Source: an uncultured Geobacter sp.
Lineage (GTDB): Bacteria > Desulfobacterota > Desulfuromonadia > Geobacterales > DSM-12255
Direction: 5' to 3'
Assembly: GCA_937860145.1 (NCBI GenBank)
Contig: CALMBF010000126.1
Location: 1-34,878 of the forward strand
Length of the DNA: 34,878 bases
Shown here: positions 1,052 to 22,429 of the stretch, piece after piece
Layout: every line of letters starts with the position of its first letter
How positions within the stretch are numbered: the stretch's first letter is position 1
The notes under the pieces: generated by a model
The model's input: only the letters and a program-made list of their open reading frames with translations
The model's database searches: none
Told to the model about the DNA's origin: nothing
Program-made: the position numbers and the translations under genes

Positions 1052-2311
1052 TCACATTCCCCGGAGTTTATCACCGACCCACCGTAGAGGTTTGGTGATG
1101 CGCCAAGAGAGGGATGACTCCATCGCCTTCAATCGATTATTTATAGATACAACTCCTTGAAAAACAGAATCCCCTAGAACGCTATAAACATACTGCTTAT
1201 ATACATTTCTTGACTCCGGCAAAAAAACATTGACAGCGTGCTCGAATGCTTCAAGGTGAACTGTCGCCATACGAGCAACTGTAAATTGCCTCGCACGGTT
1301 TTTCCCCTTATCTCTTAATTCATTGCGAAGATTGTCATCATTCCATACCTTAAGAAGTGCTGAAGCCATGTCACGATAATCCTTTGGGTCAAACATAACA
1401 GCTGCTGCATCAACTATCTCGGGCAAACTCGTCACATTGGAGCAGACGACTGGACACCCCGCTGACATGGCCTCCAAAATCGGCATCCCGAATCCCTCGA
1501 ATAAAGAAGGAAAGCAGAGTAATGTTGCCCGTGAATATAGCACCCTCAGCTCTTCATCCGAGACATATCCAACATGCAGAACCTGCTCGCTAAGTTCGAA
1601 TTCTACAATTCTTTCTAAAAGAGGATATCCGTCCTCCATTGGAAACCCTGTGCAAATGCAAGGGATTTCAACACCATGCTCCCGCTTTATATATGACAGG
1701 GCACGCAGCAACATATCGTGATTTTTGTGGTGCCAATGATTTGCGGGATAAATTATAAATTTTTCAGGAAGGTATAAATGGGCAAGATCGGAAGGGTTAA
1801 ACAAGCTGTCGATAGAGTCGCCCGCTGCTAAGTGAGCAACAAAGATTTTATCTGGATCGATCAGATGATGTTTGGCAATCGTCTGCTTTGAATATTCCGA
1901 AAGAGTAATTACCGCATCAGCTCCCCTGGTTGAAGATGCGTAATGTAGCCTACGCGATCGTAAAACATCTTCTGTGAAAAACTGTGGATAATATGCTTCC
2001 TGGATATCTGCTAACTGAACTACACTTGGAATAGGTAATGGTCTTGGCCAGAGAACGGCAAAAGGGCAAAAGTAGACATCAACTTTCATTATATGGAGCA
2101 AAATTTCGCCCTGATCGTGTACCTTAATTGCTCCTTCTCGCCAGCGATTATTCCCGAGCAACTCAAGCTCTGACTCATTCTCAGAACTATAAAAAAAAAC
2201 ATAGGTATTGTTAAAATCAGTCGACAATAACTCGCGAAACAGTCGGTGAAAGTATTGACGCAAGCCTCCCATCTTTATACTTAAAGGTACTGCATTTACT
2301 CCGATTCTCAT
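1052..2311 (-). CDS. GT4-family glycosyltransferase
   Basis: This is a cytosolic or membrane-peripheral GT-B retaining glycosyltransferase that would add a sugar from a nucleotide-sugar donor to the growing glycan. The 419-residue product starts MRIGVNAVPL with a Gly-rich acceptor loop (KMGGLRQY, residues 13-20). The C-terminal Rossmann half has FIIYPANHWHHKNH at 185-198 and the E-x7-E nucleotide-sugar motif FEGFGMPILEAMSAG at 271-285 (E272 and E280). It resembles the mannosyltransferases of O-antigen clusters, but donor and linkage cannot be told from sequence alone. Its ATG shares one base with the stop of the upstream GT-C gene (TAATG), so the two are translationally coupled. It is the last gene of the glycan island before cysD. 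A basic C-terminal tail follows the catalytic region (about residues 390-419) and may be membrane-associating. Confidence 0.88.
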   Translation of the reverse strand: MRIGVNAVPLSIKMGGLRQYFHRLFRELLSTDFNNTYVFFYSSENESELELLGNNRWREGAIKVHDQGEILLHIMKVDVYFCPFAVLWPRPLPIPSVVQLADIQEAYYPQFFTEDVLRSRRLHYASSTRGADAVITLSEYSKQTIAKHHLIDPDKIFVAHLAAGDSIDSLFNPSDLAHLYLPEKFIIYPANHWHHKNHDMLLRALSYIKREHGVEIPCICTGFPMEDGYPLLERIVEFELSEQVLHVGYVSDEELRVLYSRATLLCFPSLFEGFGMPILEAMSAGCPVVCSNVTSLPEIVDAAAVMFDPKDYRDMASALLKVWNDDNLRNELRDKGKNRARQFTVARMATVHLEAFEHAVNVFLPESRNVYKQYVYSVLGDSVFQGVVSINNRLKAMESSLSWRITKPLRWVGDKLRGM

Positions 2312-4482
2312 TACTTATTCCTTACCTGCTTACTCAACAGGGAAAGTGACCTGCGTCCCGTATTGTGTTGGCAATTGTTCTCTGATTCAAACTTGATTTC
2401 ATACAGAGAAATTTCTTGTTTTTCACTTGAAATACTCTTTGGCAGAGGATTAGTCGTCGGGGACAACGCCGATCGTGACAGGTTAAAAGTCTTGAGCTTA
2501 TTAAAGCTATACCCGTCCAACAGAGGTTCTCGGTCAGCAAGCAAAAGTGACGATTTCCCGAATTTGTTCTGGCTAAGCAACCATGTGCGAATAGCAAGCG
2601 GCGCTTTAGGACTCTCAAGATTTACCGGTGCAATATTACAATCAAAAGCAACCAAGAGTGGATTCATCCACTCTCCCCAACCGTTAATCCGTCCCCAAGC
2701 GAGAATGGTATTATCGTGCGGAAGTTGTTCTGCAATCCCCTTCAATTCAATATAAGTCCCCTTCTCTTCAGCAACTCCAGCGATCAATTGATCAGATTTC
2801 ACTATAAAATAACCCAAGTAAACAAACAAAGAAATTAAGATTAGGCGGGAATATGACTGCTTAAACTTAGCGATAAACGTATCAAAAAAGAAAAAAGCGC
2901 TGAATATAAAGCAGGGAATAACTACCGGAATATACCGTCTGATCGCGTAAATATGATTAGGATTTATACTGGGAGTCCAAAGATATAGAATTGAATAACC
3001 TCCCGCTATAAAAATCAAAACGATTACTGAACGACTCAATTTACAAGTACGAATTTTATCAATCAACACTAAAAAACCACCAATGGCACTCCATGTAAGG
3101 ATAGTGGAGATATATTTTGTGAGATTCACAAAGGAATCCTCACGAAAATCTCTCATTCCTATTGACTTGTTCCAATTTGCCAATACTCCTTTAATAAGAT
3201 ACGGATCTCCAAGATTAGGGCGAATGAAATAGGCATAGGTTGCGAGACCAACGACAGTGCAACAGGTCATAACAAAAAAATTTCGACTGAATAATATATA
3301 TCTGATAATCTCGGCGCACTTTCCGTACGTACAAACGTGAAGCCCCAGCGAAATAAGTGTGACGACGCCAATTTTAGTGGTCAGATTCGAAAGCGCATAG
3401 GCATATGGCTGGGTAAAATAAACATAATAACAGTAAGCACATGCAAATAACGGCAGTAAAACTAGATAAAAAGATCGCCATAGTGATTTATCTGCTTCAG
3501 TATCGTCTGGATAAGCTATTTTCATGACAAAGTTAGCTGAGATGCAGAGCGGAACCAACAGAAAGCTGTCAATTCGTAAAAGACCAGTTAGACCGATCAT
3601 CAGACCAGCAATAGCAGCTAGCTTCTTTTCGCGTTTATCGAACGCGTTGATCAGAAGCAGCAAACCACTCCAGAGAAACAACTGCGTAATAATTTCAGTA
3701 AGAGTCGTTCTTGCCATCCATATCTGTCCAGGATTAAGTGCAAACACAAAAGCAGCCGCAACAGCAAGTCGACGGTCCATGAACTTTTCAGCTATGCCGT
3801 AGAAAAGCATCATTGAGAATAATGCCATCAAGGCATTGAAGCGTATAAGGCCATCAAACCCGAACGAGGCAAACACTTGAGCTAGCCAAACTGGCAGAAG
3901 GTGAGCAAACTGGACAGTTATTGTTGGGACAGTGAGGTAGAATCCTGGCGCATAAATCTTACCGTACTGCGGTTCGTACCAATGGGTATCAATTACTGCA
4001 GCAACGGCATCAGAAATATTTTTGTACGGAATGTCAAGTCGACCGGTTCGCTCGATATGAACCGCGTGATTAGCATAAACACCAGCATCTCCCAAGATAA
4101 TTGGTGACTCTGTGGGAAAACCAAGATACAGAATGGCAGCAATCAATAATATAGCCAGCACCACAATCTCTGCTTTTACAATCCTGCCACCTCCGAGAAA
4201 CATGCCGCGCGCTTCCCGACTCAAGAATCGAGCAGACATCAGCAAGGCAAGCCACCCAGCAACACCAAAATAGGTAGCCCGATAAACGCCAGCCATGGCT
4301 GTGACAAGCATCGGAATAGACCAGAGGGCAACTCCTGTAGTCAATATAAGCGGAAACCGTGAAATAAATGAAACCGACACGAGTCTCTGTTTGTCCGAAA
4401 CAAGCAGCAATGTCGCTCCCAGAGAATACACCCCTGCAAGCAAACCAATCACATTAAAAATCTGCACGAGTGAAATTGTCAT
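2311..4482 (-). CDS. GT-C-type polytopic membrane glycosyltransferase
   Basis: This 723-residue inner-membrane protein has many hydrophobic segments, starting at residue 10 and continuing to about residue 570, followed by a soluble C-terminal region. The first large periplasmic loop carries an acidic motif (LGDAGVYANHAVHIERTG, about residues 130-147), as in GT39/GT83-like enzymes that use lipid-phosphate sugars. A later ARTTLTEI motif fits the same superfamily. The likely role is to transfer a sugar from a polyprenyl-phosphate donor on the periplasmic side. That fits the DPM-like GT2 elsewhere in the island, which could make such a donor. The start ATG overlaps the upstream GT4 stop by four bases (ATGA) and its stop shares one base with the next start. 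It could alternatively be a polymerase-like membrane protein. The class is fairly sure and the substrate is unknown. Confidence 0.72.
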   Translation of the reverse strand: MTISLVQIFNVIGLLAGVYSLGATLLLVSDKQRLVSVSFISRFPLILTTGVALWSIPMLVTAMAGVYRATYFGVAGWLALLMSARFLSREARGMFLGGGRIVKAEIVVLAILLIAAILYLGFPTESPIILGDAGVYANHAVHIERTGRLDIPYKNISDAVAAVIDTHWYEPQYGKIYAPGFYLTVPTITVQFAHLLPVWLAQVFASFGFDGLIRFNALMALFSMMLFYGIAEKFMDRRLAVAAAFVFALNPGQIWMARTTLTEIITQLFLWSGLLLLINAFDKREKKLAAIAGLMIGLTGLLRIDSFLLVPLCISANFVMKIAYPDDTEADKSLWRSFYLVLLPLFACAYCYYVYFTQPYAYALSNLTTKIGVVTLISLGLHVCTYGKCAEIIRYILFSRNFFVMTCCTVVGLATYAYFIRPNLGDPYLIKGVLANWNKSIGMRDFREDSFVNLTKYISTILTWSAIGGFLVLIDKIRTCKLSRSVIVLIFIAGGYSILYLWTPSINPNHIYAIRRYIPVVIPCFIFSAFFFFDTFIAKFKQSYSRLILISLFVYLGYFIVKSDQLIAGVAEEKGTYIELKGIAEQLPHDNTILAWGRINGWGEWMNPLLVAFDCNIAPVNLESPKAPLAIRTWLLSQNKFGKSSLLLADREPLLDGYSFNKLKTFNLSRSALSPTTNPLPKSISSEKQEISLYEIKFESENNCQHNTGRRSLSLLSKQVRNK

Positions 4483-5861: not shown

Positions 5862-6881
5862 TCACGGAGACGCTTTCATGCTCACATGTCCCCTATTTTT
5901 TGTAAACCAAACTTCCCTTCCTCGCTCAGAAACCTCACCCAAAGAACTGAAAAAGGCAGAGTTTGCATAGCGTGTTGAGAAGTTCTCAGCAGAGCCACCA
6001 CCTTGAACAAATGAGATCAAATCCACTCCGGCGGCTTCTGCCAGGTTTATTGCCCTGTTGATGTGTTCATCGTGGTCGTTCCAGGCGAAAACCACATACT
6101 TCCATTCAATGATTGGCGTATGGAGTGAGCGGGCATTACGAGCCGTAATGACTCTGTTCATGTTAGCAAATGCCTGTTCAAAACTACCTCCAACTTGATA
6201 TTTGCCAAGCACTTCCTGTGAAGGACCATCAATTGAAAAAAATATATGGTCAAGCATAAGTGCAGCTTCAACTTTTGCCTCGTTGTCAATTAACATCCCG
6301 TTTGTGGACAGATATATGGCTATATCAGGATTATATTTACGGATAAGAGTAATTTCTTGATAGATATTATTTGAAAGGAATGGCTCTCCGAGATTGAAAT
6401 AACAAACCTGTGCAATATTGTGCTGCTTCAGAAGTTTGGCTACCTTTTCAGTCTGTTCAAGAGTAATTTGCTTCTGACGACGGATTTCAAGCGTTTTACC
6501 TCTCGCACAATAAAGACACCTAAGATTACAACGTATTGTATTTTCTACCATTATTCCTTTGCGCGGGAGATCGAACCGTTTTAAATAATGACGGGCTTCT
6601 CTAGCACTCACAGCTACAAGCTCAACACAATGTTGACACGTGGAAAGCGGGAGTTCACCCTCCGCCAGTTTCTGACGAAATGCTTGTGCCCTCCCACCAC
6701 GAAATATTTCCTCTAAACTGGTAACATTTAAATCTCCTATCTGACCATCACCATTATAGTCCTGACAATTACAAGAAACGGTCAAGTCACAATTAATGCA
6801 GATATTGTAACTAGAAAGGCCAGATAACGCTTTGCAGTAATAGGCTTTATTGCGGCTTCTGCCTCGCAGAATATATCTCAA
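5862..6881 (-). CDS. Radical SAM protein with N-terminal SPASM-like cysteine region
   Basis: The radical SAM core carries C-x3-C-x2-C (CNLRCLYC, Cys118, 122 and 125), then the GGEP-like LGEPF (164-168) and STNGM (192-196). Ahead of it lies a cysteine-rich stretch (Cys16, 28, 31, 37, 39, 82 and 85). Its pattern of GDLNVTSLEEIF, a basic FR segment and a closing CQHC is that of a SPASM/twitch auxiliary-cluster domain, which normally follows the radical SAM barrel. The order therefore appears permuted. The reaction is unknown, and the position among glycosyltransferases suggests glycan or sugar-nucleotide modification. The start is unusual. There is no in-frame ATG or GTG after the upstream stop at 6921-6923. 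TTG at 6881 has no Shine-Dalgarno near it, while a GGAGG at about 6904-6908 is well placed for an ATT at 6891-6893, which would add four residues. Confidence 0.82.
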   Translation of the reverse strand: MRYILRGRSRNKAYYCKALSGLSSYNICINCDLTVSCNCQDYNGDGQIGDLNVTSLEEIFRGGRAQAFRQKLAEGELPLSTCQHCVELVAVSAREARHYLKRFDLPRKGIMVENTIRCNLRCLYCARGKTLEIRRQKQITLEQTEKVAKLLKQHNIAQVCYFNLGEPFLSNNIYQEITLIRKYNPDIAIYLSTNGMLIDNEAKVEAALMLDHIFFSIDGPSQEVLGKYQVGGSFEQAFANMNRVITARNARSLHTPIIEWKYVVFAWNDHDEHINRAINLAEAAGVDLISFVQGGGSAENFSTRYANSAFFSSLGEVSERGREVWFTKNRGHVSMKASP

Positions 6882-6949
6882 CCAGTCAAAAATAGTTATT
6901 GTGCCTCCACTTTGTTTATTTTAAACATAATAATTATCAAATATGTACA

Positions 6950-7993
6950 TTATGCCAGCAAGTTATCCAATATGGTCTGCCAGTTAATATTAAGATTATC
7001 GTAACGCTCCCGCCCGGCCTCTCCCCAGATACGTGCCTGTGAAGGTGATTGCCAGAGTTCATCCAATGCCTCTGCCAGGTTAGCGGCACTTGGCGCGGCA
7101 ATCAACCCCGTCTCGCGATGACAAACAAATTCAAGAGCCCCTCCAGAGTCCGTACAGGTCACAACAGGCTTTGATGCCAGCATTGCCTCCAATGTGACAT
7201 AGCCATAATCCTCATCCAAAGGGGGGAAGACAACCCCTCGTGCATGCGCGTACAAATTCCTCTTTTCCTCTTCGGTAACATTGCCAAGCCATTCAACTCT
7301 GTCTTGAACACCCAGTGACTCTGCCAGTTGCCTCAGTTCTGTTGCCATGGCAGGGACATCAGGAACGCCGGCAAACAGTATACGGACCGGTTCTTTCGTG
7401 AGTGCAAGCGCCTGCAGGACGAGCCCTTGACGTTTAGCTCCGGGGTTCAGGCGACTAGGAAAGAAGACGTACCCTCGGTCATCTCCACAAAAATAGTGCT
7501 CTGCCCCCAATGGTGGGTTATAGAGCGGCGCAGATGAAATACCACAATATTTTTTCAACCGTTTCGATACATTTTCTGCAATGGTAAAGATTGATTTTGC
7601 CTCAGTCAGTAACATTCGATCTGCCTGAACAATTGCATCCCTAACCAGTGAACCGTTCGGCTGAAGACGCAAGTCCCCCGACTCCCAAAGATCGTAAGCC
7701 TGACGGTGCTGGTGCAGTATCCAGCAGACCTTGTTCGGATGGGGGATAAGATAGGCAGGAAATTTCAGACCGATGACACGATCTATACCGACATGGCAGC
7801 TTTCGCTTAGGTCCAGCAGACGGCAGGCAAGCATCTGGTCAAGAATACGCTCTGAAGGATACCACTTGAACGGGATTTCAACGAGTTCGGCATCATGACC
7901 GGCAACAATCAGGTTGTGTCTCAGTTGGGAAGCAAGGATCTCCGCTCCTCCAGTCACAAAAGGTACCTTTACAGTAGTTATCAGAATTCTCAC
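6950..7993 (-). CDS. GT4-family glycosyltransferase, GTG start
   Basis: This 347-residue GT-B glycosyltransferase begins VRILITTVKVPFVTGGAE, with the Gly-rich acceptor loop of GT4 enzymes. It continues with WILHQHRQAYDLW in the N-terminal domain, FFPSRLNPGAKRQGL at the start of the second Rossmann domain, and the E-x7-E region DEDYGYVTLEAMLASKPVV near residues 265-285. I chose GTG at 7993 because it overlaps the stop of the upstream small ORF by four bases (GTGA) and gives the expected family N-terminus. The longer frame to 8020 adds nine unlikely residues. It is cytosolic and probably adds one residue of the repeat unit. Donor and linkage are unknown. Confidence 0.87.
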   Translation of the reverse strand: MRILITTVKVPFVTGGAEILASQLRHNLIVAGHDAELVEIPFKWYPSERILDQMLACRLLDLSESCHVGIDRVIGLKFPAYLIPHPNKVCWILHQHRQAYDLWESGDLRLQPNGSLVRDAIVQADRMLLTEAKSIFTIAENVSKRLKKYCGISSAPLYNPPLGAEHYFCGDDRGYVFFPSRLNPGAKRQGLVLQALALTKEPVRILFAGVPDVPAMATELRQLAESLGVQDRVEWLGNVTEEEKRNLYAHARGVVFPPLDEDYGYVTLEAMLASKPVVTCTDSGGALEFVCHRETGLIAAPSAANLAEALDELWQSPSQARIWGEAGRERYDNLNINWQTILDNLLA

Positions 7994-8211
7994 CGGCAAT
8001 CCCTGCCAAAGACACGGCATATCTGCCGGTAAATTCTGCTCACAAGACGTTGCAGTCTGAAGATAGATTCGGGATCAGATGGTGACGGACCGTGTAGCAT
8101 GGCAGAATGAACTACATCCGATTCATTGGCCGTTGACAGGTTCGACACTTCTCTCTGCAGCCTGCTTGCTATGGCATCGACATTAATTTCAGGCACATAG
8201 GACTTTATCAT
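7990..8211 (-). CDS. Small 73-residue protein, stub-like, unknown function
   Basis: This short frame reads MIKSYVPEINVDAIASRLQR at its start and ends in a basic RLQRLVSRIYRQICRVFGRD segment with two cysteines. The PEINVDAI...L..EV opening resembles the N-terminal segment that I know from glycan-cluster methyltransferases and glycosyltransferases (an INVDEIM-like helix), here without the catalytic domain. I chose the ATG at 8211, which has GAGG eleven bases ahead. A GTG at 8247 would add 12 residues. Its stop overlaps the GTG of the following GT4 by four bases, which argues that it is translated. It may be a decayed remnant, a small partner or membrane-anchoring subunit, or, less likely, a peptide substrate for the adjacent SPASM radical SAM enzyme. 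Confidence 0.55.
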   Translation of the reverse strand: MIKSYVPEINVDAIASRLQREVSNLSTANESDVVHSAMLHGPSPSDPESIFRLQRLVSRIYRQICRVFGRDCR

Positions 8212-8287
8212 GTAGATACTTGCCTCTATCACTCCGCATAATTTCACTCTGCTTACCGCATATGAATAAGCGAGACCAGATTTATGC

Positions 8288-9430
8288 TCAACGAAATCTT
8301 ATCAGATGCCAAGCGGCCTTGACCAAGCTTCGGGTATGGATGAGGATATTGGAATACGCCTGATTGGCAAGGGGGCAAGCACATCCGCCTTCTTTAATGA
8401 ATTTTCGGATTTCTTCCGCTTTACCCGAATACCATACGCGCTGGAAATCATATTTAAAATCTCTTAGATTTCCAAGCTCTTTATCGTACCCGAGAACACA
8501 ACATGGCCATACTCCACCATCATAGTTCAGGTGCACATTGGATATACCGGCATAACAAGGAATAATCTGCCGATTTTTTTCCAAGATTAGCCCGGCGATC
8601 TCATAATAAACTAGCCGTAATGCCTCGGTTGTGCGGGCAAGGCTTCGCTTGCTTCGGATATTAGCGGTAATCTTACGGGTAAAATCTTTCATCAAGCTCT
8701 TATATTGGGTGGCGGTTGGCGTAATGGGGTCACCAATGTTGAAGAACTCCGCTCGCTGTTCTGCCACTTCATTCCGGTAGCTTTCAACTCCAAGCGAATG
8801 AACAAAATCTTCAATTTCGTCCAGTTTATCTATGTTGAACTTAGAGATTACCGTCCCTAGTTCCAGGTGGAAATTATCGTACTCAGACTCCAACTCCTTT
8901 AGCAGTTTAACGGTCTCGAGCAGATTATCAAAATTGCCTTCAACACCTCTGATTTCGTCATGTACTTGCCCTAAACCGTCAATAGATGGTTTAACAGTAA
9001 AAGGTACGGCAGGATCATACGCCTTGATGATTTCCAGAATTTTACGGGTATCCTCTACTATTCTTTTGGGGAGCAAGGCATTGGTGGGGGTATGAATAAT
9101 CCTTGGTTTGAGATAGTGACAAGCCAGCCGGACGATTTCCGGCAGATCTTTGCGTAGGAAGGGTTCGCCACCGCTGATATTAAAAAAATACACCGGTTTC
9201 ATGGATGCAAAGATCTTTTCGATCTCGGCCAAGGTCAGGTCTTTTTCACTTCTAACAGGATTCTCCAGCCAGAGATGACCGATATTACAAGTCTTGCATC
9301 GAGACTGACACGCTGCGGTGACGGAAAATGTCAGCGTAATCGGGTCTATTCTGCCACACTTGAACGCACGGTAAATTTTATACTTAAGCAGTCGTGGCAA
9401 TAGTTTTGTCAGGAAATCGCTTGTATTCAT
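8288..9430 (-). CDS. Radical SAM/SPASM domain protein
   Basis: The 380-residue protein has the cluster motif CQSRCKTC (Cys41, 45 and 48), then SGGEPF at 86-91, the SAM-binding glycine motif. The C-terminal SPASM region holds Cys292, the CC pair at 310-311, ELGNLRDF at 318-325 and CACP at 350-353, fitting auxiliary iron-sulfur clusters. Such enzymes perform radical chemistry on peptides, sugars or alcohols (for example sugar dehydrogenation, epimerisation or peptide maturation). The context is a glycan cluster, downstream of an FkbM methyltransferase and upstream of the 73-codon ORF. The basic, hydrophobic N-terminus (residues 6-22) could sit at the membrane. The substrate is unknown. The start ATG is well placed 31 bases after the FkbM stop. 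Confidence 0.88.
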   Translation of the reverse strand: MNTSDFLTKLLPRLLKYKIYRAFKCGRIDPITLTFSVTAACQSRCKTCNIGHLWLENPVRSEKDLTLAEIEKIFASMKPVYFFNISGGEPFLRKDLPEIVRLACHYLKPRIIHTPTNALLPKRIVEDTRKILEIIKAYDPAVPFTVKPSIDGLGQVHDEIRGVEGNFDNLLETVKLLKELESEYDNFHLELGTVISKFNIDKLDEIEDFVHSLGVESYRNEVAEQRAEFFNIGDPITPTATQYKSLMKDFTRKITANIRSKRSLARTTEALRLVYYEIAGLILEKNRQIIPCYAGISNVHLNYDGGVWPCCVLGYDKELGNLRDFKYDFQRVWYSGKAEEIRKFIKEGGCACPLANQAYSNILIHTRSLVKAAWHLIRFR

Positions 9431-9461
9431 TGGCTCTCGTTACCACGGCGAATACCAGATG

Positions 9462-10193
9462 TTACTCTGCTAGATCCACCTTATGGCCGCAGGTTGTCAA
9501 ATGGGGAGGGAAAAATGTAATGACATCATAGCCATTGGCAGTCAGGCGCTGCTCTACAGCCGCGCAACTCTTCTCCTTATTACGGACATGATATGAAGCG
9601 ATTGCAAAGCAAGGCGACATATCGGTCATCGTTTGCATCGCTCCTTCGAGAGCCTCGATTTCAGCCCCCTCAATATCCATTTTTATCAGGTTCAGACGTG
9701 ACAGGCTTAGCTCTTTCACAATAGTGTCAAGCTTTGCAACCCTTATTCTAATATCATCCGCCAGCACATTCTTGTCAACTTCGTTGGCAATGTTTGCACC
9801 AAGAGTCGTATCCGAAAACACCTTGAAACTCAGTTCAGTATCATCATTGTACAATCCACAGTTCAGAGCGATAACATTCGTCAAACTCAACCGTTCTATT
9901 CTATCCACCAACTTGACGTAAGAGTCGCGAAAGGGTTCGATCGCAATGACTTTCCCTTGTCCCTTGACAAGACGGGAAAACATGATGCTGCAGTTACCAA
10001 TATGGGCCCCTGCGTCGACGACGATATCACCTGGTTGAGGGTAATAACACTTCAGGTATGTCGAATAGGAACAGGGAATCAGTTTTAACAACCAGAACGG
10101 AATGCGGAGTAAAATCATCTCATAAAGCTTATCCAGAAATGTTTGCGGTAAATATTTCAACAATTTTTCGATTATTTTAACTAATTTTTTCAT
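9462..10193 (-). CDS. FkbM-family SAM-dependent methyltransferase
   Basis: This 243-residue class I methyltransferase shows the FkbM hallmarks: VVDAGAHIGNCSIMFSRL (SAM-binding motif I), KVIAIEPF (motif II), and LIKMDIEGAEIEALEGA, the signature late motif. Enzymes of this family O-methylate sugars or other hydroxyls in glycan and natural-product pathways. I took the ATG at 10193 (MKKLVKIIEK) with a GGGAAGCC just ahead. The frame also runs upstream to 10235, where other ATG codons have no better ribosome site. The first 40 residues are basic and amphipathic (KIIEKLLKYLPQTF... LLRIPFWLLKLIP) and may bind the membrane. It is the first gene after a predicted terminator and a gene-free spacer, so it probably heads a new transcription unit. 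Confidence 0.88.
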   Translation of the reverse strand: MKKLVKIIEKLLKYLPQTFLDKLYEMILLRIPFWLLKLIPCSYSTYLKCYYPQPGDIVVDAGAHIGNCSIMFSRLVKGQGKVIAIEPFRDSYVKLVDRIERLSLTNVIALNCGLYNDDTELSFKVFSDTTLGANIANEVDKNVLADDIRIRVAKLDTIVKELSLSRLNLIKMDIEGAEIEALEGAMQTMTDMSPCFAIASYHVRNKEKSCAAVEQRLTANGYDVITFFPPHLTTCGHKVDLAE

Positions 10194-10609
10194 GGCTTCC
10201 CGCTTCTCTCCGTGCCAAAACTTCATTGAATTCAAGAGCTATTTGCCGGGTAATGACAAGCACAAGGAGATTCGTCGCCCCCCCCACAAACTATACATAT
10301 CTTAATAATTGGATTTTCATTCCATCTAGCCAATATCCCGGCCAAAATAGGTTAGGTTCGTAATGAACAGCAAGGCGGCACTAAGGTGAGGTGCCTTCAT
10401 GGCAGCCATAAAAAATAAAGCTGGGGCAACACGACCCAGCGGTCGGACTCAAGTAGTGGAATAAAAAACTGTAGTATAAACAAGAAATAACTGAAGGCAT
10501 TAATAGGCATTGTACAAACCTTTAAGACTTTTCCATGTGATTAAGCAGATACCCGCCGGCATTGAAAGCAAGCAGTAATCTCACCCGTATCGCGGAATAA
10601 TAGGTAACT
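10194..10609. other. Gene-free spacer between two glycan transcription units
   Basis: About 416 bases without a convincing gene. It contains a predicted minus-strand terminator at 10409-10440 and a C8 run near 10278-10285. A 40-codon open stretch on the minus strand (10326-10448) would encode an Ala/Leu-rich peptide, but its frame begins after an in-frame stop and its first ATG lies inside the terminator. A TATAGT element at about 10287-10292 (minus strand) could serve as a -10 for the FkbM unit, but no matching -35 is seen. I recognise no insertion sequence. Confidence 0.5.
10409..10440 (-). terminator. Rho-independent terminator after the B12-type radical SAM gene
   Basis: Read on the minus strand, GCTGGG and CCCAGC form a 6-base-pair GC-rich stem with a 9-base loop, directly followed by a T-rich tract (TTTATTTTTT). 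It lies about 170 bases after the stop of the gene at 10610-12082, so that transcript would carry a long 3' untranslated tail. Confidence 0.7.
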
Positions 10610-12082
10610 CTATGGCACATCTTTTTTCGCAAAAATATACTTTATATAGAATGCATATCTCATGTTTTTTGTTTTTATCGCGATCAATAATTTTGCAATT
10701 TTTGATATCAGCCCCTTGAAAGGGAGCAACGGTGTTATCGATTCTATGCCGTTGTAAACTGAATCGTTGGTGATAAGTACACGTAATTGCATCATTAGCT
10801 CATAAGTACTATAAAGTTTTACTTTTGATTTGCTGACTGACCCAGAAGAATGGGTATACCCTATTACACCTTGCTGGATTTGTTCATACTGAAGAGGATC
10901 CAACAGGTTGTTTTTTAAAGCTATGTCGATGATTTCAGTTTCTGGATAATATGTAAGAAAAAAGGATACAAGTCTGTCCGGCTTGATTTTCCCAATCAGA
11001 GCAAGACTGTCTCTGATATCATCCTCTGTTTCTGTGGGCGCTCCCAGGATTATGTCTACAAAGAGTTTGATGCCTGAACGCTTAACCATTAATCCAGATT
11101 GGATTATTCTTTCAGTAGTTTCATTGCGGTGGAAGATATCTTTCCTGATCCTTTCTGAACCAGATTGTATTCCCATTTGCATCGACCAGCAACCGCCTTC
11201 TTTCAACAAGTCAACAATGTCCTGTCTGATAAAGTTTGGATGCGTGGTGCAGCTGAATGGGATGCCTATCTCCGCTTTATATAAGGGGATAAATTCATTT
11301 AACCAATCATAAGACATGGTAAATATATCATCTGAAAATATAATAGATTTAATCCTGTATTTATTTTTTGCAATGCGCAGCTCTTCAAGAACATTCTGCA
11401 CTGAACGGCGTCTGACATGTTTTTTTTCATGCGAGTACATCCGATGAAGCATGCTGTTACCACAAAAACTACAGGAAAACGGACACCCTCTGCTGGTCAT
11501 AACCCTGTACATCTCCGCCAACATCGGAACCTTGCTATAGAACAAATCTTTGTCCGGAAGCGGCAACAAATCCAGATTCTTTATATACGGTCTCGTCGGA
11601 TTGATATGCATATCACTACCAATCTTATATCCCAAATTGGCAATGCCCTGAAAACCAACGGTCCCCTTTTGCAGGCAGTCAAGAAGCTCCAACAAGGCAT
11701 CTTCACCTTCTCCGACTACGACGTAATCGACACAACTATTCTGTAATACGGTTTTGGGGACTGCAGTGGGATGGACCCCTCCAAAAACCACTGGAACTTC
11801 GCACCTGCTCTTGATACGAGCGGCCATTTGCAGGCACCAGCTGTAATTTCCGGTAAAGCAAGAGAAACAGATCAGGTCCGGTTTTTGTGCTACTGCCTTG
11901 TCAACAATTTCCTGATCAAGGTTTGTAAATGACTTCAGGAAAGGGATGTCCAGAAATGAATGCCCGGTGAATACTGCGGGATCGAAAAGAAGTGAGGTTG
12001 AGTGGCCATGCGCTTTCAAAGTGCTCGACAAAAACTGTATGCCTATATGCTCACTCCCATTGTATATAAATAGTACATTCAT
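10610..12082 (-). CDS. B12-binding-domain radical SAM protein
   Basis: This 490-residue protein has an N-terminal cobalamin-binding-type Rossmann domain (residues 1-140, with the typical VVFGGVHPTAVPK at 98-110 and VVVGEGEDALLELL at 121-134). A radical SAM barrel follows with CPFSCSFC (Cys200, 204 and 207), then SDDIF, MQMGIQSGSERI and ILGAPTETEDDI. Enzymes of this class often methylate unactivated carbons or do related radical reactions, although many have unknown substrates. No DxHxxG base-off motif is visible, which is common in this class. It is the third radical SAM gene in the island. It follows the Wzx-like gene with a short AT-rich gap and precedes a terminator, so it ends a transcription unit. 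The substrate is probably a sugar, lipid or glycan carrier, by context only. Confidence 0.87.
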   Translation of the reverse strand: MNVLFIYNGSEHIGIQFLSSTLKAHGHSTSLLFDPAVFTGHSFLDIPFLKSFTNLDQEIVDKAVAQKPDLICFSCFTGNYSWCLQMAARIKSRCEVPVVFGGVHPTAVPKTVLQNSCVDYVVVGEGEDALLELLDCLQKGTVGFQGIANLGYKIGSDMHINPTRPYIKNLDLLPLPDKDLFYSKVPMLAEMYRVMTSRGCPFSCSFCGNSMLHRMYSHEKKHVRRRSVQNVLEELRIAKNKYRIKSIIFSDDIFTMSYDWLNEFIPLYKAEIGIPFSCTTHPNFIRQDIVDLLKEGGCWSMQMGIQSGSERIRKDIFHRNETTERIIQSGLMVKRSGIKLFVDIILGAPTETEDDIRDSLALIGKIKPDRLVSFFLTYYPETEIIDIALKNNLLDPLQYEQIQQGVIGYTHSSGSVSKSKVKLYSTYELMMQLRVLITNDSVYNGIESITPLLPFKGLISKIAKLLIAIKTKNMRYAFYIKYIFAKKDVP

Positions 12083-12140
12083 TTATTATTCCTTAGAGCA
12101 CAATTAGGTCTATTTTGAATGCCAGCATAATGTTCATATT

Positions 12141-13583
12141 TTAATTGGCTCGCATAATATACAAAAAGTCATACATATCTTTTCGTATTAAACCCAATAA
12201 TTTCATTGCAATAATAGATAAGCCAGCAAGCAGTACATAAGAAAAAAACAACCAGTATATGTTTGTAAAATTAATATACTGATAAACTATTGTTGCTACA
12301 ACCGCAACAACGCTAATCAGACAGGTGTGCCTATACATCCGCATCACCTCAACTTTTATCCCCATTACCCTCTGAACAGGTCCCATCATGGCCATACACC
12401 CCAACATTGAAGGGACCAATAAGGAAAGACCGGTACCTAAGGCTCCCAATATCGGTACCAACAGAATATTGAGAACGACATTGACTCCGAGGAGCGCAAA
12501 GCTTATAGCAGCGTTTTTCACCGTTGAAACTGCATGAACAACAGTGTTCAGATAAACCACAACCGAAAGTAAAAAAATCGCGGGAACAAGAACAGCAAAG
12601 GCTCCTCCTGCGGCTTCGTAAGTCTTTGAATACAATAGTGCAAAAAGATGCCTTCCTGATGCCGCTAAAATTATAAATACAGGTGCCAAGACAAGCATAA
12701 AAAAATCAATGCCCTTCAAAAACAAGGCATTGGCTGCGAGTTTGTCCCCACCATGATATTTTTTGGAAATTACGGGAGTTATGACGGAAATAAGCGCCAC
12801 ACTGATAAAATAGATGATTTTGCTGAAACTGGACGCCGCGGTGTAGTACCCAACCACCTGATCATCGCTGGTGATGCGTTTCAGGAGAATGGTGTCCACA
12901 TTCATTAGCAGCGTAATTCCTGCATAGAAAAAAATAAGTGCTAAGGATTTACGTGCAAGCTCATCAAAACCGATGTGAGCCTTCACTTCTAATCTATTAT
13001 GTCGTGTGAAAAGACAGACCAACCCCAGAATTGATGAGGAGAAAACCGCAAATACGAGCCCATTAATAACGAGAGTCAGTTTATCTGCAGCAGGAAATAG
13101 CAGTAATAGAGGAATGCAGACCAACCTGAGGACAGAGTACAAAATTGTCATGCCGCTCTCTGAACCAAACCTTTGCTCTCCATTAAGCACTCCAATGCAA
13201 AGGAAATGCACGGCTGTAATCGGAATAATAAATGCTGTTTGCTTTATGTACTTTTCCATGGAATGGTCGCCTAGCAACCCGGCAATTATCCAGGAACCGT
13301 AATAATTTAGGGTAAATAACAATGCTCCAATACCAAGTTGGAACATTGCACTCTTCCTTACCAAGTCCCCCCATGAATATAATTGCCTTGAGACAAACAT
13401 GGATACTGACTGCCGTATGCCATTACTCAAAAAAAGGTAGTTGATATTCATCAAGTTCAGGATGATCCCGACAAGACCGTAATCATCAACCTTCAGAACC
13501 CTTCCGAGGTAAACATGCATAATTACAGCAGAAACTGCAAATGCGAACTTAGACAACAATTGTAACATGAAACCTAATTTCAT
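12141..13583 (-). CDS. Wzx-type polysaccharide flippase (MOP superfamily)
   Basis: This 480-residue membrane protein has about 12-14 hydrophobic segments spread along its length. The start, MKLGFMLQLLSKFAFAVSAV, and the following YLGRVLKVDDYGLVGIILN are typical of the polysaccharide-transporter branch of the MOP exporters. The predicted role is to flip polyprenyl-diphosphate-linked oligosaccharide across the inner membrane. Its presence together with an ABC exporter (wzm/wzt) is notable, since one glycan normally uses only one of the two routes. It follows the pyruvyltransferase-family gene after 21 bases, so the two are probably cotranscribed. I do not assign the symbol wzx because the substrate class is not shown. 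Confidence 0.85.
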   Translation of the reverse strand: MKLGFMLQLLSKFAFAVSAVIMHVYLGRVLKVDDYGLVGIILNLMNINYLFLSNGIRQSVSMFVSRQLYSWGDLVRKSAMFQLGIGALLFTLNYYGSWIIAGLLGDHSMEKYIKQTAFIIPITAVHFLCIGVLNGEQRFGSESGMTILYSVLRLVCIPLLLLFPAADKLTLVINGLVFAVFSSSILGLVCLFTRHNRLEVKAHIGFDELARKSLALIFFYAGITLLMNVDTILLKRITSDDQVVGYYTAASSFSKIIYFISVALISVITPVISKKYHGGDKLAANALFLKGIDFFMLVLAPVFIILAASGRHLFALLYSKTYEAAGGAFAVLVPAIFLLSVVVYLNTVVHAVSTVKNAAISFALLGVNVVLNILLVPILGALGTGLSLLVPSMLGCMAMMGPVQRVMGIKVEVMRMYRHTCLISVVAVVATIVYQYINFTNIYWLFFSYVLLAGLSIIAMKLLGLIRKDMYDFLYIMRAN

Positions 13584-13604
13584 AATTCAACTTAACAAAT
13601 TTAA

Positions 13605-14828
13605 TTATTCCACAAAATCTCGTTCAGCGCGAATTCGGCAACTTATAACTGCTCTATGCACCTCTTTAAGGTGACTATGCGCCTCAATCCCGAGGTGTTC
13701 TACAATCCCTTGCAGATGTTCTTCATATTGGTGCCTAGCTTCCAATAGTTTCTCCCAGGTATGCAACAGGTCATCCCTATTCATACTGGCTATGTCCAGC
13801 GCATAGGCGTCCACCCCGATGTCCGCCATAAAATTGATAATTTTACGTTCATAGGACAGCCCAATTGTTGGAACACATGCCTGAACGGCAAGTAAGACCG
13901 AATGGTACCTCGTTCCGATAAATGCGTCACAGGACGCTATCCCATCACGCAACTCGACGAGATTCCTGTAACAGAATTTTTCTACTGTTGCATGATGCTC
14001 AGCAAATTTTTCCTGAATGAATTCAAACATCTCAAGATCATTCTGATGAGGCTCATTACAGAAGGAATAGAATACCAGTTCAACATTGTCCGGCATCGAA
14101 CGTAATAAATCTATGATAGCTTTTTCGTACAATAAGATGGCCCTTTCTGGAAAATGCTTTGCCTTGAATTTCCTGAAATTAAGACCAATCCTTTTTATTT
14201 GGCTGAAATTGCGACTGTTCGCTCTGTAATGCCTGAAAATAAAGCTCAAATCAGGGTATGTAGCCATGAAAGGTCTGTGGACGTTGAGTTTGCCAAGTTC
14301 CTCAAGGGAAGAGGTGTCTCGCACGGAAATAAACTGCGCCTTATTCATTAGCCAACGGATCAACAACCTGGAGTGCCAGAACCGTATCTCACCAACCCCT
14401 ATGCCGATAAAGGAAAATGACCGGCGAAGAATAAGAGACCATAATGCCCTGATCAACCAAAAGACTACAAAATATCTGTTACTGTCCTTGATTATTGTCC
14501 CTGGCCCGATCAGATGCAGATCACTTTTTTTCAATGCAGCAACAGTATGTGCCAGCCAGCTAAAAGACTTCAGTAACGCCGAATCTGGCTGCCGCACTCC
14601 CCAGCGCCCGGAATAGATGAGCCTGATACTCCGATTGTTGCACTTTTCCCTAGCCAGCAACGACTCAGTTTTGGCAACATCTGCAGTAAAAATAACTAAG
14701 TGATTCAAATTCAGCGATTTTGACAATCCGTCAACAAGGGCGAGCAACAGGATATCGTCACCGACATTGTTTTCGCCAAAATGCCCGCTCAATGCAATAT
14801 TGAAGGGTTCATCGTGCTTGCTTGACAT
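13605..14828 (-). CDS. Polysaccharide pyruvyltransferase-family protein
   Basis: This 407-residue protein has the family opening IALSGHFGENNVGDDILLLA (residues 11-30), a middle LIGPGTIIKDSNRYF block, and the C-terminal FIGTRYHSVLLAVQACVPTI with the conserved Arg and His, followed by LSYERKIINFM. This is the CsaB/WcaK-like fold, a GT-B relative that transfers pyruvate from phosphoenolpyruvate to a sugar to form a ketal. It would place an acidic pyruvyl group on the glycan. It is cytosolic. Its start ATG shares one base with the stop of the upstream epimerase (TGATG), so it is translationally coupled. Some members of this family have no proven pyruvyltransferase activity, so the reaction is inferred. 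Confidence 0.83.
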   Translation of the reverse strand: MSSKHDEPFNIALSGHFGENNVGDDILLLALVDGLSKSLNLNHLVIFTADVAKTESLLAREKCNNRSIRLIYSGRWGVRQPDSALLKSFSWLAHTVAALKKSDLHLIGPGTIIKDSNRYFVVFWLIRALWSLILRRSFSFIGIGVGEIRFWHSRLLIRWLMNKAQFISVRDTSSLEELGKLNVHRPFMATYPDLSFIFRHYRANSRNFSQIKRIGLNFRKFKAKHFPERAILLYEKAIIDLLRSMPDNVELVFYSFCNEPHQNDLEMFEFIQEKFAEHHATVEKFCYRNLVELRDGIASCDAFIGTRYHSVLLAVQACVPTIGLSYERKIINFMADIGVDAYALDIASMNRDDLLHTWEKLLEARHQYEEHLQGIVEHLGIEAHSHLKEVHRAVISCRIRAERDFVE

Positions 14829-15847
14829 CAGGTTTGTACCGAAATCTGATTAGCGGATTGAAGCTGGGTTTTATACCATGCCACCGTTTCATTAATTCCA
14901 GCTTCAAAATCTACCGACTGTGCATATCCCAGGTCATTAGCAGCCTTGCTTATAGAAAATTCCCGGTCCCAGACGGTTGACGCTATGTTTTGCCGTGTTG
15001 CCAGAGGAGCCTTTCCAGCCATTCTTCCCAGCAGTTCGAAACCTGATGCGGCACAATACATAAGCCAGACCGGAACATACGGATAACAGGCCCTTGCCCC
15101 CCATGCAGTCATGACCATCTTCCTGAGTTCGTCCATGGCAAGAGACCGCTCCGACGCTATTATGTACACTTGACCCGCTTTTCCCCGATGAATGGTCCGC
15201 ATCGCGGCTTGAACGAGGTCCCGCACGTGAACAAGTGGCGTAAGGTTCCTACCTGAACCGACCTTCGGGAATATCCCCTGCCTCATCAACCGGCACATCT
15301 TGAAAAACTCACCTGTGCCCCCAATCCCGTAAACCATGCAGGGACGAAGCACCAGTGTTGGTACCCCGAAGTCTTTGCCGAGAGAAAGCGCAACTATTTC
15401 GCTCTCATACTTGCTTTTCTGGTATGGCGTTCTGGGTTGCGGCGGATCGGTTTCATCGACTATGCTTTTCTTGATCAAGCCCATGGCTGCCGTTGAGCTG
15501 AAATGAATAAACCTGCCCACTCCCGCCCGGCCACACTCCCGCATCAGACTTGCAGTTCCTTCAACATTCACCGCCACAAACTGCTGGAATGCCTGTTGTG
15601 AGACAGCAGAGACGTGTCCCATGGCCGCCAGATGAAATACATGGTCTACCCCATCGGCAATGCTTACAAGCGTTTCCGGTTTGGTAAGATCACCTGGAAT
15701 AAACTCTAGATAACGTGTCGGGATGAAAAGAGCCTCAGCCTGAGCTTTATCACGTACCAGACAGCGAACCGAATACCCCTCTTGCAGCAACTGACGCACA
15801 AGGTATTGGCCGATAAAACCCGTCCCACCCGTTACCAGAACCCTCAT
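14828..15847 (-). CDS. NAD-dependent epimerase/dehydratase (extended SDR)
   Basis: This 339-residue extended short-chain dehydrogenase starts MRVLVTGGTGFIGQYLV with the GxxGxxG NAD(P)-binding turn (residues 7-13). The catalytic triad is visible as SST at 117-119 and YQKSK with Tyr142 and Lys146. FHLAAMGHVS and PGDLTK are typical of UDP-sugar epimerases and 4-reductases. It would interconvert or reduce a nucleotide-activated sugar for the glycan, but substrate specificity cannot be read. I chose the ATG at 15847 because it overlaps the upstream GT4 stop by four bases (ATGA) and gives the family N-terminus. The longer frame to 15943 is shadow extension into the GT4 gene. Confidence 0.9.
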   Translation of the reverse strand: MRVLVTGGTGFIGQYLVRQLLQEGYSVRCLVRDKAQAEALFIPTRYLEFIPGDLTKPETLVSIADGVDHVFHLAAMGHVSAVSQQAFQQFVAVNVEGTASLMRECGRAGVGRFIHFSSTAAMGLIKKSIVDETDPPQPRTPYQKSKYESEIVALSLGKDFGVPTLVLRPCMVYGIGGTGEFFKMCRLMRQGIFPKVGSGRNLTPLVHVRDLVQAAMRTIHRGKAGQVYIIASERSLAMDELRKMVMTAWGARACYPYVPVWLMYCAASGFELLGRMAGKAPLATRQNIASTVWDREFSISKAANDLGYAQSVDFEAGINETVAWYKTQLQSANQISVQT

Positions 15848-17004
15848 CCCGTCACCTTTACGATATCTTCGATAATCTCGACCATTCGACCCCAGGCGAA
15901 TCTCTCCTGCTGCTTGCCAATGGCTGTCGAAAACTCCTGACACCTGTTCTGCTCGAAAAAACGCACCACGGCATCCGCCAGCGCTTCTGCGTCACAAGGC
16001 GGAACAACATAGCCGGTCCTGCCATCCTCGACAACCTCAGGCAATCCGCCAACCGACGTAACAATAACCGGCTTACCGAAACCAAAGGCAATCTGAACGA
16101 TACCGCTCTGGGTTGCTGAAACGTATGGAAGTACAACAAGGTCAGAAGCGGTAAAATATTTACCTACTTGACGATCCGGGATATATGCGTCAATGATTTT
16201 AACCATCGCAGAAACACCGAGAGACTCGATCTGTTCGAGATATTTCGGTTTGTCATCATAAAAATCTCCGACTACAAGAAGGTAAGAATTTTCGACCCGT
16301 TTATTTATCGACGGCAAGGCCTCGATAAGATACGTCAATCCCTTGTACTCCCGGACGAAGCCGAAGAACAGCATAACCCTGGCGTCATCCGGCAGCTCGA
16401 GTTCTCTGCGCAATGCAGCTCGATCAAACCCCTCAATATTAAAGGCATCATACGTAGGATGCATGGTCCTTCGATAAACTGGATTTTTAACTATATCAAG
16501 CAGCATTGCCTCATTTTCGCCGGACTGGACTATAAAGCAATCTCCTCGCCTCAAAGTAAAAGTGGTCATGAGCCGATCAAAGGGCAGCCGTTCATGTGGA
16601 AACACATTGTGAATCAGGAAGAGCACCTTCGTACGGCACATCATTTTGGCCAATATGGCAATAACAGAAAATGCCGGGCCGAAAAACGGGTTCCACCAGG
16701 GAATGATGACAAGATCAGGAGTGAATCTGGCTAATACCATACATGCTTGAAGCCAGGAGAATGGATTGACTGTATTTATGAGATATTCGGTATCCTCGTA
16801 CCTGAATGAATCGTTTTCGTAATCCCTCTGCTGCTGTCCAGGATAGAGAAATTTGGGGTACTGTAACTTGAATGAGACGACCTTGGTAGGATGAGTCTTT
16901 GCAAGCTCCTTCGCAAGGAGGCCTGTGTAGTGGGCAATACCGCCTTTATAGGGGTATACTGGGCCGAGCAATACTACACGGAATGAGGGGGTGGATAAAC
17001 GCAT
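15844..17004 (-). CDS. GT4-family glycosyltransferase
   Basis: This 386-residue GT-B glycosyltransferase has the N-terminal acceptor loop VVLLGPVYPYKGGIAHYTGLL (within residues 10-30) and then LVIIPWWNPFFGPAF. Near 188-205 it has VMLFFGFVREYKGLTYLIEA, the start of the donor-binding domain, and ASDLVVLPYVSATQSGIVQI with FGFGKPVIVTSVGGLPEVV later. The second glutamate of E-x7-E is replaced in the SGIVQIAF segment, as in several GT4 subgroups. It is cytosolic and membrane-peripheral. It is coupled by ATGA overlap to the epimerase gene that follows. The ribosome site is weak. Donor and linkage are unknown. Confidence 0.88.
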   Translation of the reverse strand: MRLSTPSFRVVLLGPVYPYKGGIAHYTGLLAKELAKTHPTKVVSFKLQYPKFLYPGQQQRDYENDSFRYEDTEYLINTVNPFSWLQACMVLARFTPDLVIIPWWNPFFGPAFSVIAILAKMMCRTKVLFLIHNVFPHERLPFDRLMTTFTLRRGDCFIVQSGENEAMLLDIVKNPVYRRTMHPTYDAFNIEGFDRAALRRELELPDDARVMLFFGFVREYKGLTYLIEALPSINKRVENSYLLVVGDFYDDKPKYLEQIESLGVSAMVKIIDAYIPDRQVGKYFTASDLVVLPYVSATQSGIVQIAFGFGKPVIVTSVGGLPEVVEDGRTGYVVPPCDAEALADAVVRFFEQNRCQEFSTAIGKQQERFAWGRMVEIIEDIVKVTG

Positions 17005-17093
17005 CTATCTATTGTTCCATGTCGCTCTGTAAGGGCAGGACAATTGAATCAAGTCATTAAGTAAATAAGTTTCAAATCTAGATAACACACTCC

Positions 17094-18038: not shown

Positions 18039-18149
18039 ATATCCTGGTCGCTGTGCTTATGCAATGCTAGATGAAACTGTCAAAAGGGTTCATCGACCTA
18101 TTTTCGCCTACCTACAGATTAATTAACTTGACTACAAAATGCTCCCAGA

Positions 18150-19313: not shown

Positions 19314-19397
19314 AATGACTTAATATTAATAAATAATTGTTATACAACTCATACTTACCAACTATCTCTTGATTGTAAATCAGTTGTTATCGCTCGA

Positions 19398-21359: not shown

Positions 21360-21405
21360 TTTCAGAACCTTTATACTTAAACAGACAAATACAAAAATCA
21401 GAATG

Positions 21406-21444
21406 ATATATAAAAGGGCGACTGCATTCATGCAGTCGCCCTTT
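21406..21444 (-). terminator. Strong rho-independent terminator, bidirectional form
   Basis: A perfect 14-base-pair inverted repeat (arms 21413-21426 and 21431-21444, core GGGCGACTGCA / TGCAGTCGCCC) with a 4-base loop. On the minus strand it is followed by TTTTATATAT, so it ends the transcript of the fibre-like gene at 21480-22118. The A3/T3 ends of the arms would also give a short U stretch in the other direction. It separates that gene from wzt, which therefore needs readthrough or its own promoter in 21360-21405. Confidence 0.88.
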
Positions 21445-21479
21445 ATAATAACCTATTTCAAATGTATTGTGGTGAAAAT

Positions 21480-22118: not shown

Positions 22119-22429
22119 CTGAAACCTCCTCTTGTTTGGATATTTAGGTGGTGTTAAATCAGTAAGTAGCTTGATGAAGGCAGGGCGCATCTGGAACCTT
22201 ATCCATTGACCTGCCCCCTCTATTCTTGCCACCTTTCGTGTCGTACGCTATTTAACAGCCTACTTCTCAAATTGGCTGATTAACTTTATCTAAGAATTTT
22301 CAAAAAATCAAGCAGCTACTGCTATTTTTGCACTGGGCTGCCTGCGCGGTTAAATGAATATTGGCAGCACAGGAAAATATGCAATAAAGGAGCCAACACA
22401 GTCACATTGTCGCCCGTCAGCCTACCCAC
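22119..22429. other. Intergenic region upstream of the fibre-like gene
   Basis: This 311-base region has no gene. It should hold the promoter of the fibre-like gene, since a terminator-like hairpin stands at its far end. A TTGAAA at about 22296-22301 (minus strand) could be a -35, but the expected -10 17 bases on is poor. The composition changes here from the AT-rich island to the GC-rich wzm side. Confidence 0.4.
22300..22330 (-). terminator. Weak terminator-like hairpin after wzm
   Basis: On the minus strand AGCAG-TAG-CTGCT forms a short stem that can be extended by an A-rich left arm and a T-rich right arm with a two-base bulge, followed by ATTTTTT. It lies about 110 bases beyond the wzm stop. 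The small stem makes this a weak call. Confidence 0.4.

Follow-up and report, generated by a model that had tools for sequence, protein, structure and literature searches.

The window analysed here is the entire contig C126 (34,878 bases) of an uncultured Geobacter sp., whose assembly comprises 3.96 Mb in 207 contigs and is 95% complete. On its minus strand, bordered by cysD (62-961, GC 0.63) on one side and by a right flank of higher GC on the other, lies a low-GC block (GC about 0.34-0.53) that encodes Wzm, Wzt, a Wzx/MurJ-like flippase, four GT4 and one GT2 glycosyltransferases, a PMT-like protein, a pyruvyl transferase, a short-chain dehydrogenase/reductase (SDR), an FkbM-family methyltransferase with two further methyltransferases, and three radical SAM (rSAM) enzymes, here called rA, rB, and rC. 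We read this block, with a probability of about 0.6, as a mosaic ABC-transporter (Wzm/Wzt) glycan island that holds three separately acquired rSAM tailoring enzymes, of which rB stems from a GT4/SDR operon. We conclude with good confidence that rA, rB, and rC do not form a conserved set and, with equal confidence, that rB has an operon of its own.

The three genes are, with high confidence, what the first-pass annotation had taken them for, namely three unlike rSAM proteins in a glycan island; the domain arrangements are as claimed and all exceed the Pfam cutoffs. In rA (5862-6881, minus strand, frame open to 352 amino acids), an N-terminal SPASM/twitch-like domain (PF13186, residues 26-85, 24.4 bits, cutoff 21.5) precedes the rSAM core (PF04055, residues 115-245, 66.1 bits, cutoff 29.5). 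The order is reversed in rB (8288-9430, minus strand), with the core at residues 36-207 (52.5 bits, same cutoff) and a C-terminal SPASM domain at residues 292-352 (27.3 bits, cutoff 21.5). rC (10610-12082, minus strand) carries a B12-binding domain (PF02310, residues 12-133, 69.2 bits, cutoff 32.1) N-terminal to its core (residues 196-362, 87.8 bits). The CxxxCxxC motif is present in the rA and rB alignments and in the rC translation. Among the best 25 NCBIfam models of each protein (out of 57, 41, and 36 for rA, rB, and rC, respectively), none is matched at its curated cutoff. Thus, no housekeeping family was identified for any of the three; independent occurrence elsewhere, which the first-pass annotation had named as speaking against its proposal, was observed for rB.

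Orthologues of rB occur across several classes of the phylum. At E 1e-30, 23 of 395 phylum-sample genomes, including the source genome, gave an rB match, several of them 47-60% identical; a nine-sequence rB alignment used at 1e-90 detected 9/85, 17/241, and 3/277 genomes in three classes, the last count again including the source genome. Neighbourhoods were compared in 31 loci from other genomes whose rB orthologues are 38-60% identical, comprising 9 of the 15 phylum-sample loci and all 22 from the three-class search. Left out were L144-L149, with rB relatives at most 36% identical (in L146 and L147 not recovered as an open reading frame, ORF), two fragmentary matches in G712, and eight lower matches (G331, G333, G375, G287, G154, G211, G355, and G309). 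Neighbours were counted by tblastn at 1e-5 up to a midpoint distance of 5 kb, requiring more than 100 bits for the window's GT4 glycosyltransferase GT4d and more than 60 bits for the SDR; the counts are raw. A GT4d-type gene and an SDR gene were each found within this distance of rB in 24/31 loci, a class-I methyltransferase in 19/31, and a DUF218 protein in 10/31. The polysaccharide pyruvyl transferase (PyvT), the glycosyltransferase GT4c, and Wzx appeared in 1/31 each. All four of GT4d, rB, SDR, and methyltransferase lie within 6 kb in 15 of the 31 loci, and in each of these the order is GT4, rB, SDR, methyltransferase. Nine of these full operons are plain, five have the DUF218 gene between rB and SDR, and one has it in front. 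None of the operon members scanned (rB of L193, L199, and L136; GT4 and SDR of L193) reaches a curated NCBIfam cutoff, the best-named model for the SDR of L193 being HpnA (174 bits, cutoff 367.65); the methyltransferase of L193 and the DUF218 protein of L197 gave no NCBIfam match at 1e-12.

In the same counts, the search for the gene set in other genomes that the first-pass annotation had recommended did not recover the trio: relatives of rA, rC, and the window's FkbM protein were each found in 0/31 loci within 5 kb of the rB orthologues. Just beyond that distance, L143 has a B12-rSAM gene 6.9 kb from rB and L138 an FkbM gene 7.0 kb away on the opposite strand, and in L137 an FkbM-domain protein next to rB was missed by tblastn with the window's FkbM. 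Contig ends truncate many of the 31 loci, so absences of neighbours are partly technical.

The window itself combines in one locus an rB orthologue, a GT4 of the operon clade, and an operon-related SDR. GT4d (15844-17004, minus strand; Pfam) has the GT4s of L136 and L006 as its closest group (support 100/100, on a long stem), and a clade of 26 rows (98/97) unites it with every one of the 24 operon GT4s included. The SDR (14828-15850, minus strand, alternative start at 15943), an HpnA-like NAD epimerase/dehydratase by Pfam and NCBIfam (HpnA, 167 bits, cutoff 367.65), forms the sister lineage of 18 of the 24 SDRs that neighbour rB orthologues (99/98), with six outside. The SDR and GT4d genes overlap at 15844-15850. 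Several findings weigh against an origin of rB in this operon. The window's operon genes are not adjacent, GT4d and SDR lying 7565 and 6479 bp from rB (midpoints), with the pyruvyl transferase, the flippase, rC, and FkbM in between, and neither an operon-type methyltransferase (tblastn 1e-5) nor a DUF218 relative was detected in the window. Very long branches occur in the GT4 tree, several of them in the outgroup. The SDR of L136, a locus with a 59% identical rB, belongs to another clade, and L137 and L186, two of the three loci with 59% rB, are without the canonical operon. Finally, two of the 19 methyltransferase matches are just 23-26% identical (L142 and L187). Because GT4d and SDR are related to those of the operon but lie several kilobases from rB, and methyltransferase and DUF218 protein were not found, we read the window as a dispersed variant of the operon.

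The island was probably assembled horizontally. Its acquisition would agree with the low GC content and with the absence of rA and rB from near kin: neither rA (E 1e-20) nor an rB orthologue (E 1e-90) was found in the one other member of the genus and the 11 other members of the family searched. A search of plasmids gave no rA match at 1e-15; rB had a single distant match there (Parabacteroides) and rC a single partial one, and a scan of viral contigs with rC gave no match.

rA is rare. Outside the source genome, rA turned up in 1 of 96 relatives (G086, 47% identity), in 2 of 394 phylum-sample genomes (G466, 51%; G369, 27%), and at a single locus of the genome contig collection (L001, 39%). 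G466 is alone among the 63 genomes of its class, and at 1e-60 none of 226 genomes of another class gave a match; the same alignment did find G466, so the query was valid for this null result. In five of five aligned sequences, C16, C39, C82, and C85 of the auxiliary region and C118, C122, and C125 of the rSAM motif are invariant. The twitch domain-containing rSAM model NF033640, named for its N-terminal twitch, has the same domain order as rA and scored 35.7 bits, below its cutoff of 170. The structural model of rA (mean pLDDT, the predicted local distance difference test score, 65; five models, 65-44; three sequences) gave generic fold matches, which were not used. In G086 (L006), the rA relative lies directly upstream of an rB-like gene (28%) with a GT4d relative nearby, and in G369 (L008) it stands inside a cluster of five rSAM genes. 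Two of the four rA relatives are without a recognised rB or rC relative, and no GT4 or GT2 profile match was obtained around rA relatives in L007 (G466, 20 kb) and L001 (15 kb). Among the proteins that Pfam identified there (run on 4 of 16 ORFs in G466 and 6 of 11 in L001) are an acyltransferase/AMP-binding protein and a formate-tetrahydrofolate ligase, together with a GGDEF regulator, a pyrophosphatase, and a protein resembling glycoside hydrolases. As a separate observation, L090 (IMGVR_UViG_3300032118_000034) encodes at 102-1049 an rSAM protein of 315 amino acids that shares 31% identity with rA and is SPASM-like in its N-terminal region; its gene adjoins genes that resemble, by sequence only, phage structural genes (tape-measure-like and tail-like).

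rC belongs to a clade of six (100/99) together with enzymes of L065, L059, L064, L060, and L063. A SPASM rSAM gene also occurs in two of these five loci (L064 and L060), rB-like in L060, and L064 has the window's GT2 family (317 bits). A cassette in which an rB-like SPASM rSAM gene is joined by a SPASM gene of a second family and by a B12-rSAM gene recurs in the window's taxonomic order (L062, L066, L068, and L070); L072 has the second SPASM gene and the B12-rSAM gene, no rB-like gene being seen in the stretch covered. We considered the window as an instance of this cassette: rB is sister to the cassette's rB-like clade (95/81), but we rejected the assignment because rC lies outside the cassette's B12 enzymes, which form a separate clade (100/100). 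Outside the order, L143, L144, L145, and L149 pair an rB relative (31-38%) with B12-rSAM genes, and L148 is without them. The region 7032-15380 of L145 (about 8 kb) holds an rB relative (34%), four B12-rSAM-type genes, one of them 37% identical to rC, and GT2-type genes. Thus, SPASM and B12 enzymes are loosely associated, in combinations whose members change.

Curated families did not capture rC. Its best NCBIfam match is ApyD (134.5 bits, cutoff 750); lower scores were given by the hopanoid cyclitol-ether enzyme HpnJ (TIGR03471, 114.9 bits, far below the cutoff of 577.6), with most of whose profile rC aligned, B12_rSAM_oligo (TIGR04295, 69.7 bits, cutoff 400), and AprD4 (NF033070, 57.9 bits, cutoff 500). 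TIGR04295 describes B12-domain rSAM enzymes like rC and is associated with oligosaccharide clusters. Among aminoglycoside rSAM enzymes, AprD4 is the best PDB sequence match of rC (6fd2, 1.3e-15), yet rC stays far below its NCBIfam cutoff. There are precedents for rSAM enzymes that act on sugars: a passage of PMC5461906 describes GenK and GenD1, both cobalamin enzymes, and AprD4, a dehydratase, in this role, and a passage of PMC12583986 presents HpnJ as an rSAM enzyme acting on lipid-linked hopanoid glucosamine. The Pfam scan of 20 window proteins, to which this search was confined, revealed no hopanoid gene.

The density of rSAM genes stands out for the island but not for the genome. The source genome has 64 rSAM-domain matches, 63 of them above the cutoff, in 3.96 Mb, and its relatives are also rich (25-65 matches per genome in 14 genomes, source genome included). 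With uniform placement, an equally tight rSAM triple arose somewhere in the genome in 17% of simulations, and at least three rSAM genes in one given 22-kb island have P = 0.006, the island having been chosen after the fact. Ten adjacent rSAM pairs lie at most 5.4 kb apart versus 5.3 expected, so rSAM genes cluster somewhat in this genome.

Multi-rSAM glycan islands recur in this order, so the remark of the first-pass annotation that such clusters usually have at most a single rSAM gene fails in this lineage. L066 has three SPASM rSAM genes and one B12-rSAM gene alongside GT2, SDR, and carbamoyltransferase genes. The five rSAM genes of L008 occupy 13.3 kb with GT2, GT4, and sulfotransferase genes, all three architectures among them. 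In L069, positions 8670-18987 (about 10 kb) contain four B12-type genes with CxxxCxxC, a fifth without the motif, one SPASM rSAM gene, and GT2 genes. At E 1e-20, an rB relative is found in 15 of 97 genomes of the order, source genome included; we took all 19 rB relatives from the other genomes, in 17 loci, with up to about 10 kb per side and often cut by contig ends. A B12-rSAM gene lies in the same stretch for 10 of these 19 and for 7 of the best-scoring 8, both raw counts. Two further contigs are recorded here for their rSAM content. L100 (IMGVR_UViG_3300014202_001517) has at 1-20969 eight ORFs with CxxxCxxC that resemble N-terminal SPASM, C-terminal SPASM, and B12 rSAM proteins, in 21 kb amid membrane proteins. 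L101 (IMGVR_UViG_3300020171_002008) has at 8974-21570, in what looks like a sugar-type cluster, a consecutive rB-like gene, second rSAM gene, and B12-rSAM gene, followed by the N-terminal half of a transketolase (Pfam) and another B12-rSAM gene.

A joint pathway, in which rA, rB, and rC act one after another on the same sugar, carrier, or peptide and combine B12-dependent methylation with SPASM-type oxidation or epimerisation, appears improbable to us. The three genes do lie contiguously on the same strand, and partial parallels exist: the arrangement in L006, the three architectures within about 13 kb in L008, and a B12-rSAM gene in the same locus as 10 of the 19 distant rB relatives of the order, that of L060 in rC's own clade. 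Together with L143-L145, L149, and others, L060 shows some linkage of rB-like and B12 enzymes, which tells against fully separate acquisition, and in L145 an rB relative stands beside four B12-rSAM genes, one of them 37% identical to rC. Against joint action stand the lack of rA and rC relatives in the 31 rB loci, the rA relatives of L007 and L001 without a recognised glycosyltransferase nearby, the placement of the order cassette's B12 enzymes in another clade than rC, and the finding that rA (1e-60) is absent from 226 genomes of a class in which rB (1e-90) occurs in 17 of 241. Of the earlier proposal, the three enzyme classes and their place in a glycan island stand, and the conserved GT4 and SDR neighbours of rB point to sugar chemistry; one shared pathway is poorly supported.

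We hold with moderate confidence that rB acts on a sugar; our confidence in the identity of its reaction is low. An alignment of the window protein with 29 others (L150 and L201, identified by tblastn, belong to the 31 loci and stand outside this alignment) revealed that the three rSAM cysteines and C292, C310, C311, C350, and C352 of the auxiliary region are invariant in 30/30 sequences, and that C104 is present in 24/30. A passage of PMC9012708 describes BtrN as a twitch enzyme whose auxiliary cluster, held by four cysteines, is the likely electron acceptor in the two-electron oxidation of an aminocyclitol alcohol, and describes MoaA, with three cysteines, as redox neutral. With five conserved auxiliary-region cysteines, rB has at least the four expected of a BtrN-type enzyme, their role as ligands being predicted from the alignment. 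Like BtrN and SpeY, rB combines an rSAM core with a C-terminal domain that has at least four invariant cysteines, and both appear among the fold matches to its model; unlike them, it has CC and CxC pairs and the genomic partners GT4, SDR, and methyltransferase.

A putatively well-ligated auxiliary cluster and the conserved SDR neighbour suggest an oxidation followed by a reduction, in which rB would probably oxidise a carbon of a sugar and the SDR would then reduce it. The GT4 would place or accept a glycosyl unit, from whose carbinol carbon the 5'-deoxyadenosyl radical of rB would take a hydrogen. The electron would pass to the auxiliary Fe-S cluster of rB, yielding a ketone in a BtrN-like two-electron oxidation, and the SDR would reduce or rework this ketone, with net epimerisation or deoxygenation as the outcome. 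In canonical operons, the methyltransferase would finish the sugar. rA and rC would act independently, rC most likely in a cobalamin-type C-methylation or rearrangement of a sugar or carrier, and rA probably in another oxidation. Gene families, conserved neighbourhoods, phylogeny, and conserved cysteines are observed; the horizontal assembly and every substrate and reaction are inferred.

Structure comparison, which the first-pass annotation had recommended together with profile searches, did not distinguish the substrates; as with the profiles, none of which reached its cutoff among the best 25 for rA, rB, and rC each, it gave no assignment. The rB model (pLDDT 71, six sequences) matched SkfB (Z 21.2), BlsE (20.6), SuiB (20.3), DesII (17.8), BtrN (17.3), and EpeE (16.5), so that BtrN is one of many near ties, with several enzymes higher. 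Three of these, BlsE, DesII, and BtrN, act on sugars, which favours our assignment of rB to sugars; the high rank of SkfB, a peptide maturase, among the sugar enzymes speaks against it. The modelled fold would suit sugar and peptide enzymes alike and does not give the substrate. In a PDB sequence search with rB at E 0.001, SkfB was the single match (1e-4), with none to BtrN or SpeY.

Epimerase logic is known from NeoN and EpeE. If it applied to rB, the enzyme would be a redox-neutral sugar epimerase with a spare cysteine as hydrogen donor, and the SDR would serve another step. We regard this as unlikely. In its favour are the fifth invariant cysteine in rB, where the BtrN cluster needs four according to the same passage of PMC9012708, and also C104 and the fold match to EpeE. 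However, the extra C311 adjoins C310, may itself be a ligand, and is not invariant in the wider family, and the conserved SDR partner better fits an oxidation-reduction pair.

BlsE, which decarboxylates cytosylglucuronic acid according to a passage of PMC3715490, ranks second in both rB fold rankings (TM score 0.57/0.65 and Z 20.6), which would fit rB as a BlsE-like radical enzyme that decarboxylates a uronic-acid unit. However, similar scores are reached by enzymes with several other functions, and the 20 window proteins scanned with Pfam include no uronate-forming gene, the rest of the genome not having been searched; we consider this reading decidedly unlikely. Very unlikely is a chance location in the glycan island of three maturases of ribosomally synthesised and post-translationally modified peptides, for which SkfB as sole PDB sequence match and top fold match of rB and ApyD as best NCBIfam match of rC could be cited, given that the scores are far below the cutoffs, that rB is conserved in the company of GT4, SDR, and methyltransferase genes, and that the gaps 8021-8287 and 10236-10609 hold no convincing precursor ORF of at least 20 amino acids (no search for a leader-binding domain was made).

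Returning to rB as a probable sugar oxidase from a GT4/SDR operon, we tentatively propose an as yet unnamed system, widespread in the phylum, in which an rSAM/SPASM oxidase may work with a GT4, an SDR of HpnA type, and a methyltransferase to convert a lipid- or glycan-linked sugar via a radical-made keto intermediate; the island would be a combinatorial variant in which two more radical enzymes joined this module. If true, sugars could arise outside the usual nucleotide-sugar route, and one coat could carry up to three radical-made modifications. To our knowledge, sugar-modifying rSAM enzymes are best known from small-molecule antibiotics and hopanoids; a conserved operon, present in several classes of one phylum, in which an unassigned rSAM/SPASM family goes together with a glycosyltransferase and a reductase would extend such chemistry to cell-surface glycans and provides a testable gene set. 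The window is to be read enzyme by enzyme, and rB together with the GT4 and the SDR several kilobases off.

The remaining assigned genes of the island lie on the minus strand and were identified mainly by Pfam. The GT4 glycosyltransferase GT4c (6950-8020) and the FkbM-family methyltransferase (9462-10235; NCBIfam 98.3 bits, cutoff 37.7) are indeed interleaved with the rSAM genes, as had been noted. The small ORF at 7990-8247, also counted among the interleaved genes, is probably not a gene, because it has no Pfam or NCBIfam match at E 0.001 and overlaps the start of the GT4 gene. A GT-C/PMT-like membrane protein is encoded at 2311-4482 (25.9 bits, just below the Pfam cutoff of 26.1). Beyond rC follow the Wzx/MurJ-like flippase (12141-13583), PyvT (13605-14828; CsaB model 125 bits, below the cutoff of 213), and, after GT4d, the GT2 (17094-18038), nearest to AglJ and polyprenyl-phosphate sugar synthases in NCBIfam, below their cutoffs. 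The transporter consists of the ATPase Wzt with a Wzt C-terminal domain (20076-21431) and the ABC-2 membrane protein Wzm (22430-23242). Adjoining the Wzm gene, 23339-25474 encodes a protein of 711 amino acids without a Pfam match, and between the Wzt and Wzm genes, 21480-22232 encodes a protein of secreted appearance with NVGIGT-like repeats.

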